A stretch of 64,000 nucleotides of DNA from Candidatus Methanimicrococcus labiotermitis. GTDB lineage: Archaea; Halobacteriota; Methanosarcinia; Methanosarcinales; Methanosarcinaceae. Positions 20,401-22,623 of the stretch are shown piece after piece. Within the stretch, counting starts at the first letter, position 1; each line of letters opens with the position of its first letter. The notes beneath the pieces were generated by a model, which made no database searches, was not told the origin of the DNA, and worked only from the letters and a program-made list of their open reading frames with translations. Location of the stretch: contig WRCE01000002.1 of assembly GCA_009784005.1 (NCBI GenBank), forward strand, positions 1-64,000, written 5' to 3'. The translations under genes were made by a program, and so were the position numbers.

Positions 20401-20551
20401 AGCAGTGGCGATGGTAGCAGTGGCGGTGGCAGCAGTGGCGGTGGCAGCAGTGGCGGTGGCAGCAGTGGCGGTGGCAGCAGTGGTGGTAGCTGTGCCACGT
20501 TCGCGAAGCGAACGGCTATTTCAAAAAAAAGCAGATGCATGTGGCTACTTC
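20401..20551 (+). repeat. Copy R4 of the dispersed hairpin element (left arm of an inverted pair)
   Basis: Left array at 20401-20490: six 15-bp units of AGCAGTGGCGGTGGC. Core: GGTAGCTGTGCCA, hairpin CGTTCGC (20498-20504), GAA, GCGAACG (20508-20514), GCTATTTC, A8, GCAGATGCATGTGG. It continues directly into the 16-bp array and faces copy R5 in inverted orientation. Confidence 0.92.
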
Positions 20552-20900
20552 CTGCATTGACTGCCACCTGCATTGGCTGCCACCTGCATTGGCTGCCACC
20601 TGCATTGACTGCCACCTGCATTGGCTACCTGCATTGGCTGCCACCTGCATTGACTGCCACCTGCATTGACTGCCACCTGCGTTGACTGCCACCAGCATTG
20701 ACTGCCACCAGCATTGACTGCCACCAGCATTGGCTGCCACCTGCATTGGCTGCCACCTGCATTGGCTGCAACCTGCATTGACTGCCACCTGCATTGACTG
20801 CCACCTGTATTGGCTGCAACCAGCATTGACTGCCACCTGCATTGACTGCCACCTGCATTGGCTGCCACCAGCATTGACTGCCACCAGCATTGACTGCCAC
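20552..20900. repeat. 16-bp tandem array, 22 units, between inverted element copies
   Basis: Twenty-two copies of CTGCATTGACTGCCAC with variants (CAG for CTG, GGC for GAC, GCGT for GCAT); one unit is shortened to 13 bp, so the length is exactly 21 x 16 + 13 = 349 bp. Open frames such as WQSMQVAVNAGG on the reverse strand arise because the repeat lacks stop codons in all frames; they have no start site or ribosome site and I do not call them genes. Confidence 0.93.
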
Positions 20901-21158
20901 CTGCCATCAGGAACTAACCACATGCATCTGCTTTTTTTTGAAATAGCCGTTCGCTTCGCGAACGTGGCACAGCTACCGCCACTGCTGCCGCCACTGCCCC
21001 TGCTTCTGCCTCTGCTCCTACTTCTGCCACTGCTCCTGCTTCTGCCACTGCTGCCACTACTGCTGCCGTCACTGCTACCGCCACTACTTCCGCCACTGCT
21101 CCTGCCACCACTGCTGCCGCCACTGCCACCACCACTGTTGCCACCACTGTTGCCGCCA
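20901..21158 (-). repeat. Copy R5 of the dispersed hairpin element (right arm of the inverted pair)
   Basis: Reverse complement of the R4 core: CCACATGCATCTGC, T8, GAAATAGC, hairpin CGTTCGC-TTC-GCGAACG, TGGCACAGCTACC. The outer array (about 20975-21158) is a degenerate mix of GCCACTGCTGCC, GCTCCTGCTTCT and similar units. R4 and R5 cores agree over about 65 bp with no mismatch seen. The pair and the array between them form an inverted repeat of about 760 bp. Confidence 0.92.
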
Positions 21159-21271: not shown

Positions 21272-22195
21272 ATGGATATTATTCTTGTCATTGTTTTTTT
21301 AATCCTCACGGGCTATTTTCTCAAAAGAATCGGCCTCCTTGCCGAAAAAGATAAAGTGGCTTTGAATAACGTTGTTCTTTATATCGGCATTCCCGCCCTT
21401 ATTTTTAATTCGATGCTCAGGAATGTGCATGCGGATGAACTGGCGTCGTTTTTTAAGCTGACGATTTTTTTTATGCTTGTGTCTTTGTTCGCTGTTTTTT
21501 TGTCTTATGTTGTCGGCAAAAAGATTCTCAAATTGCAGCCGAAATCGCTCGCCGCTTTTATTTTGGTCGGCGCCTGCAGCAATACCGCCTTTATGGGCTT
21601 TCCCATTATTGCGGGATTTTACGGCACCGAAGGCTTCACGCGGGCGATTTTTTGTGATGTCGCCAGTCTGTTTCTCATCGTCGGCCTCGCCGCGTATCTC
21701 GGTTCTAAAGTCGGCGGCCATAAGGTAAATGTCGTTAAATAGCTGTTGAAATTCCCGCCGGCAATTGCGTGGGCCTTGGCTCTTGTTTTGATTTTGCTCG
21801 GCGTTGACATGAGCATGGCGCCATCCCTCCTCTCAAGCATCTTGGAACTGCTTTCGGGGCTCGTCGTTCCTTTGATTATGCTGTCGCTTGGCATTTCTCT
21901 GTCAGGAAAATACTTAAAAATCGCCTTCATTCCCGCTGTCGCCGTGACCGTGATTCAGCTATTTATCATGCCGATCGCCGGAATCTTAGCCCTGCCGCTT
22001 TTTCAGCTTGCGGAATTGGATAAAAAAGTCGCCATCATCGAAGCCGGGATGCCGCCGGCGCTGACACCCATCATCTATGCCGAAATTTACGGATTCGATA
22101 CCAAATTGATTTCCGCCGCCACGTTTTTAGCAACAGTCGCCTCCATTTTGTCAATTCCGGCATGGCATTTGATAATGGAATCGGGATTAATATAA
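21272..22195 (+). CDS. AEC-family transporter interrupted by one in-frame TAG codon
   Basis: Auxin efflux carrier (AEC) family permease, a class of secondary transporters for organic anions such as malate. One reading frame of 307 codons spans the gene, interrupted only by TAG at 21740-21742 (codon 157). Both halves belong to the family: before it, IGLLAEKDKVALNNVVLYIGIPALIF and GACSNTAFMGFPIIAGFYG; after it, KFPPAIAWALALVLILLG, LSSILELLSGLVVPLIMLSLGISLSG and IIEAGMPPALTPIIYAEIYG, giving about ten hydrophobic segments and a usual full length. With other genes here never ending in TAG, read-through as pyrrolysine is possible; a recent nonsense mutation is the simple alternative. No Shine-Dalgarno is seen before a second start, so a separate downstream protein is less likely. 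The stop is TAA. Confidence 0.82.
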
Positions 22196-22251
22196 TAGCG
22201 AAAACGGAATCAAGAGAATAACAAATGAATAACAAATAGCGAAAGCAATCA

Positions 22252-22623
22252 AGAAATAGCGAAAGCGAGTTAAGGGAATAGCGAAAGCGAGTTAAGGGAA
22301 TAGCGAAAGCGAGTTAAGGGAACAGCGAAAGCGAGTTAAGGGAACAGCGAAAGCGAGTTAAGGGAACAGCGAAAGCGAGTTAAGGGAACAGCGAAAATGA
22401 GTTAAGGGAATAGCGAAAGCGAGTTAAGGGAACAGCGAAAGCGAGTTAAGGGGATAACGAAAGCGAATTAAGAGAATAGCGAAAACGAGTTAAGGGAATA
22501 GCGAAAGCGAGTTAAGGGAATAGCGAAAGCGAGTTAAGGGAATAGAGAAAGCGAGTTAAGGGAATAGAGAAAGCGAGTTAAGAGAATAGAGAAAGCGAGT
22601 TAAGGGGACAGCGAAAGCGAAAG
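22252..22623. repeat. 22-bp tandem array between the AEC gene and leuS
   Basis: About 17 copies of a 22-bp unit beginning GGGAATAGCGAAAGCGAG and ending TTAA, with substitutions such as ACAGC for ATAGC. It lies in the 614-bp gap between convergent genes. The flanks (22200-22250 and 22624-22800) hold looser repeats of the same kind (AATAACAAA, AAAACAGATACAGATTCAAT). Confidence 0.92.

Follow-up and report, generated by a model that had tools for sequence, protein, structure and literature searches.

An in-frame TAG in an AEC-family permease gene of Methanimicrococcus as a probable pyrrolysine codon

The window, that is, the whole 64-kb stretch of DNA analysed, carries an AEC-family permease gene whose reading frame contains a TAG at codon 157. 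The features of the locus are as follows:

21272..22195, + strand: AEC-family permease gene (PF03547 Mem_trans) of 307 codons plus TAA with codon 157 read through, recognised from its single frame, Pfam matches in both halves, a gap-free orthologue alignment and a two-bundle model
21272..21739, + strand: first half, corresponding to the first helix bundle (residues 2-148) and part of the linker, from Pfam and the model
21740..21742, + strand: proposed pyrrolysine codon, the in-frame TAG at codon 157, which is Gln in same-genus orthologues
21743..22192, + strand: second half, corresponding to the second helix bundle (from residue 162) and related by homology to PIN auxin carriers in their C-terminal half, from Pfam, the PIN comparison and the model

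Translation of 21272-22195 gives a frame running from an ATG start to a TAA end at 22193-22195, with the TAG as its sole in-frame stop. The read-through protein scores 132 bits against PF03547 (cut-off 25.7), and each half alone matches the family (1.7e-20 for the first, 9.6e-19 for the second), the two covering successive parts of the model (6-142 and 201-342 of 343). It also aligns without a gap to the four full-length same-genus orthologues, all of 307 aa, at 68-79% identity, the closest (79%) being found in the metagenome-assembled genome Lab288P3bin190 (G012); orthologues are absent from most genomes of Methanosarcinaceae. Neither translation nor the orthologue alignment revealed a frameshift, an indel or a second stop across the 307 codons. 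The original prediction had described a 307-codon frame with one TAG at 21740-21742, both halves of which match the family and in which no second lesion exists, and this description is confirmed. An AlphaFold2 model of the protein (mean pLDDT 88.3, pTM 0.86) places its helices within residues 2-148 and 162-303, from which the product is confidently predicted to be a single chain of two helix bundles; truncation at codon 157 would cost the transporter one of its halves. Tandem arrays lie on both sides of the gene, at 20551-20904 (22 copies of a 16-bp unit) and 22235-22620 (17.6 copies of a 22-bp unit).

The position of codon 157 was occupied by Gln, encoded by CAG or CAA, in all five same-genus orthologues, and the TAG was found only in the home genome (G000, the genome from which the window derives) among the genomes examined. 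The corresponding column in 29 homologues is variable (E 14, Q 5, K 5, S 2, R 2, D 1), and residue 157 falls in the model within a short helix that links the two bundles, a position at which a lysine derivative is plausible. Judging from these alignments, the TAG looks like the outcome of one CAG-to-TAG mutation. Since Gln is present in 5/5 same-genus orthologues, there is no sign of selection for pyrrolysine at this site; a Gln-to-pyrrolysine change at such a variable, polar, inter-repeat position would probably be near-neutral rather than mark a dedicated catalytic residue, and an incidental replacement is more likely than a functional specialisation. Folding of the region 3' of the TAG disclosed no PYLIS-like stem-loop, the sequence being less stable than its shuffles (z = +1.97); the PYLIS element is not obligatory for pyrrolysine insertion according to a review (PMC9499178).

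Pairwise omega for the permease gene against the closest relative is 0.19 (the median of 332 genes being 0.12), and by halves, as compared with L009, it is 0.16 in the 3' half and 0.23 in the 5' half. On these substitution rates both halves are under purifying selection, without extra relaxation in the 3' half. An earlier parsimony count with three outgroups had suggested raised nonsynonymous change on the home lineage; judged against 88 control genes, the count (36 nonsynonymous and 35 synonymous) is slightly high, with an uncorrected p of 0.026 and rank 12/88, and a mild relaxation of the gene on this lineage is possible. Should the TAG be recent, the selection test would be blind to the difference between a working gene and a newly dead one.

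The home genome is that of a Methanimicrococcus-like archaeon and consists of a 1.69 Mb draft in 62 contigs, and the search for pylT and pylSBCD proposed along with the original prediction recovered a complete pylTSBCD cluster on contig C11, arranged on one strand in the order pylT-pylS-pylB-pylC-pylD. The anticodon of pylT is CTA (CUA in the tRNA), and no other tRNA with a CTA anticodon was found in the 1.26 Mb sampled. PylS comprises 443 aa with both the N- and C-terminal domains and scores 660 bits to PRK09537, while PylB, PylC and PylD score 450, 424 and 264 bits, respectively; all four exceed the curated NCBIfam cut-offs. A single full-length aRF1 gene is present in the home genome, as opposed to two in the 4.2 Mb genome G006 of the same family. 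A paper on Methanimicrococcus genomes (PMC11362671) reports pyrrolysine biosynthesis in nearly every genome of the clade. A gene adjoining pylT (L005:12154-13014, - strand), which has no Pfam match, carries a TAG after which the home genome and G012 share four codons before a further stop; it is one of the two possible TAG ends among the homology-supported C-termini counted below.

The use of TAG as a stop was then assessed in 1.26 of the 1.69 Mb, sampled as stretches. Coding-like ORFs (n=664) end in TAA in 311 cases, TGA in 334 and TAG in 19, and in 17 of the 19 TAG-ended ORFs the coding sequence extends in frame past the TAG. A looser read-through control on TAA and TGA mostly caught downstream neighbours that share the frame, and a stricter rule requiring coding character in the 25 codons after the stop was therefore chosen; it was satisfied by 14/19 TAG ends vs 20/645 TAA or TGA ends (Fisher p = 4e-16). 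The permease gene itself is not one of the 19, having fallen just below the coding test in that run and passed it in another. Among 411 homology-supported C-termini, for which homologues in two relatives were required and frames were picked by score, 212 are TAA, 197 TGA and at most two TAG (about 0.5% at most), both possible TAG ends being followed by another stop 2-4 codons later. Set against the 4-5% TAG stop usage of Methanosarcina (PMC4153887), no more than 2/411 has a probability of about 1e-6. Within the window, the 38 other gene ends passing the stricter coding test comprise 19 TGA, 19 TAA and no TAG, in line with the earlier count of 47 other genes that end in TAA or TGA. Few TAG ends (2/201) were likewise seen in G006, so that scarcity of TAG does not by itself set the genus apart, and TAGs within ordinary conserved genes are the stronger evidence.

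Such genes were sought all against all, with frame arbitration applied because antisense shadow ORFs swamped the unarbitrated list. The principal cases are given below:

L052:1177-2361, + strand: chorismate synthase gene aroC, TAG at ORF codon 90, where M. blatticola has Glu (GAG)
L070:13455-16040, - strand: Hel308 helicase gene, single in-frame TAG
L057:6098-9838, - strand: Rad50 gene, single in-frame TAG
L057:14251-15180, - strand: PstA gene, single in-frame TAG, where G012 has His
L021:16097-16657, - strand, and L241:4514-5017, + strand: NT5C nucleotidase genes of two Methanimicrococcus species, TAG at the same codon in the home genome and G012
L078:14825-16024, - strand: argD gene of M. 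blatticola DSM 13328 (G010), a relative available in culture, TAG at ORF codon 85, where the home genome has Arg

Further TAG-containing genes of the home genome encode a PrmA-like methylase (Ser in relatives), a Sel1 protein (Tyr in relatives), an M50 protease, an AAA_21 ATPase and large surface proteins, and G012, the closest relative, has a TAG in hisG, nnrD and an aldolase-like gene. At the TAG sites of the home genome, relatives have a variety of residues (Q, E, H, S, Y), the pattern of a codon in free use. The NT5C pair shares 86% identity at a dS of about 0.8, and the presence of TAG at the same codon in both species is hard to explain without read-through; by this comparison, NT5C is a candidate for a conserved pyrrolysine protein outside the methyltransferases. 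The methylamine methyltransferases with an in-frame TAG, recognised by eye from their read-through proteins, are two each of mtmB, mtbB and mttB in the home genome, an mtmB TAG being common to it and G012. Taken together, the complete pylTSBCD, the near-absence of TAG stops and the many TAG-containing genes make pyrrolysine decoding by the home genome well supported.

It is highly probable that the in-frame TAG of the AEC permease gene serves as a sense codon for pyrrolysine and that the transporter works, codon capture being the most economical account. In the mechanism envisaged, tRNA-Pyl (CUA), charged by PylS with pyrrolysine made by PylBCD, would out-compete aRF1 at UAG, a codon that appears to have been almost emptied of its stop function in this genome. 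A genome lacking TAG stops could then tolerate new TAG codons as pyrrolysine substitutions, and the C-to-T change from CAG to TAG in the permease gene would amount to a Gln-to-pyrrolysine missense mutation, tolerated at a variable polar linker position. We infer efficient suppression, insertion of pyrrolysine in this protein, a functional transporter and a near-neutral change. The suggestion of a possible pyrrolysine protein stands as regards decoding, which is upheld by pylTSBCD, the scarcity of TAG stops and the other TAG genes; the proposed alignment of AEC relatives returned only Gln in the genus.

Among the alternatives, the one that fares best is that a recent C-to-T change placed a nonsense codon in a permease that the cell can do without, truncating the product to 156 residues, with decay just beginning. 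The original prediction had held that a sense codon in close strains, if accompanied by further lesions, would mean a simple nonsense mutation; the sense codon is indeed there, CAG being one step away from TAG, and the lesions are not. The absence of the gene from most genomes of the family, where it must be dispensable, and the slightly raised nonsynonymous share on the home lineage would also suit such an event. However, with tRNA-Pyl present and essentially no TAG stops, the UAG should be decoded as in aroC and hel308, and 307 codons free of indels, frameshifts and second stops, with purifying selection on both halves, speak further against it; a nonsense mutation is thus considered unlikely. 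Since the genome-wide context indicates that TAG is itself a sense codon, Gln in the relatives does not refute a pyrrolysine codon. A simple pseudogene was rejected as the main reading, there being no second lesion, both halves being constrained and TAG not acting as a stop in this genome.

A misassembled or miscalled base in a normal CAG codon, or a variant from a minority strain, would be in keeping with a draft of 62 contigs and a codon one base away, but at least a dozen other genes contain TAG as well, one of them conserved in a second assembly, and TAA and TGA seldom interrupt genes, a TAG bias that random error would not give; this explanation is very improbable. Slightly less credible again is a pair of half-transporters, in which translation stops at the TAG and re-initiates at a TTG two codons on, with the two chains assembling afterwards. 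The TTG at 21746 does open a 149-codon ORF, and the halves do match the two helix bundles; every full-length orthologue is nevertheless a single chain, and the coincidence of the TAG with the linker needs no split. A suppressor tRNA that inserts one of the standard amino acids at TAG, for example Gln, which would leave the protein with its ancestral residue at codon 157, can be given almost no weight, as pylT is the sole CTA tRNA found in the 1.26 Mb, the residues at other TAG sites are mixed instead of Gln, and the methyltransferase TAGs are classical pyrrolysine sites. Reassignment to Gln via another tRNA was rejected on account of the missing second CTA tRNA in the 1.26 Mb and the mixed residues replaced.

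Pyrrolysine in MtmB, MtbB and MttB is catalytic and conserved. The permease TAG faces the same pyrrolysine machinery in the same genome, yet its pyrrolysine would lie at a variable linker position and in one examined genome only. Similarly, the protein resembles the AEC/PIN family (PF03547; PIN8 structure 7qp9) as a two-bundle membrane protein with a clear sequence match and differs from it in its probable pyrrolysine. Kivenson and colleagues, in about 2025, reportedly described an archaeal genetic code in which all TAG codons signify pyrrolysine, and the home genome is comparable in that TAG appears to serve as a genome-wide pyrrolysine sense codon.

A closer precedent is the gut methanogen 'Ca. 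Methanomethylophilus alvus', which has a full pyl set, 1.6% TAG stops and TAG-free homologues in its relatives (PMC4153887). Borrel et al. (2014) listed 16 non-methyltransferase pyrrolysine candidates in it (PMC4153887, Table 7), one being a transporter family protein, so the earlier expectation that a pyrrolysine transporter would be unusual does not hold. The home genome likewise combines a full pyl set, few TAG stops and ordinary genes with TAG, a transporter included; unlike 'Ca. M. alvus', a member of the Methanomassiliicoccales, it belongs to Methanosarcinaceae, carries the TAG in an AEC permease, has TAG stops of at most about 0.5% and shares one non-methyltransferase TAG between two species of Methanimicrococcus. 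Keyword look-ups in papers on Methanimicrococcus genomes, PMC11362671 included, returned no mention of TAG as a sense codon. The phenomenon is known from other gut methanogens, and the present case would extend it to Methanimicrococcus, for which we came across no report.

On balance, though with appreciably less confidence than for the permease codon, it is favoured that TAG in Methanimicrococcus, a genus of arthropod-gut archaea, is a permanent, proteome-wide pyrrolysine codon, with core enzymes including chorismate synthase and Hel308 dependent on pyrrolysine, the NT5C pyrrolysine kept between species and the reassignment separate from that of the Methanomassiliicoccales. If true, the 22nd amino acid would be a general building block in this lineage, beyond the methylamine methyltransferases, and aroC, rad50, hel308, pstA and the AEC permease would come out split or truncated from gene callers that treat TAG as a stop. 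The TAG in argD of M. blatticola DSM 13328 makes the idea of a pyrrolysine code testable in pure culture. Pyrrolysine in housekeeping genes would, moreover, tie viability to the pyrrolysine cassette, a link proposed by Borrel et al. for 'Ca. M. alvus' (PMC4153887).
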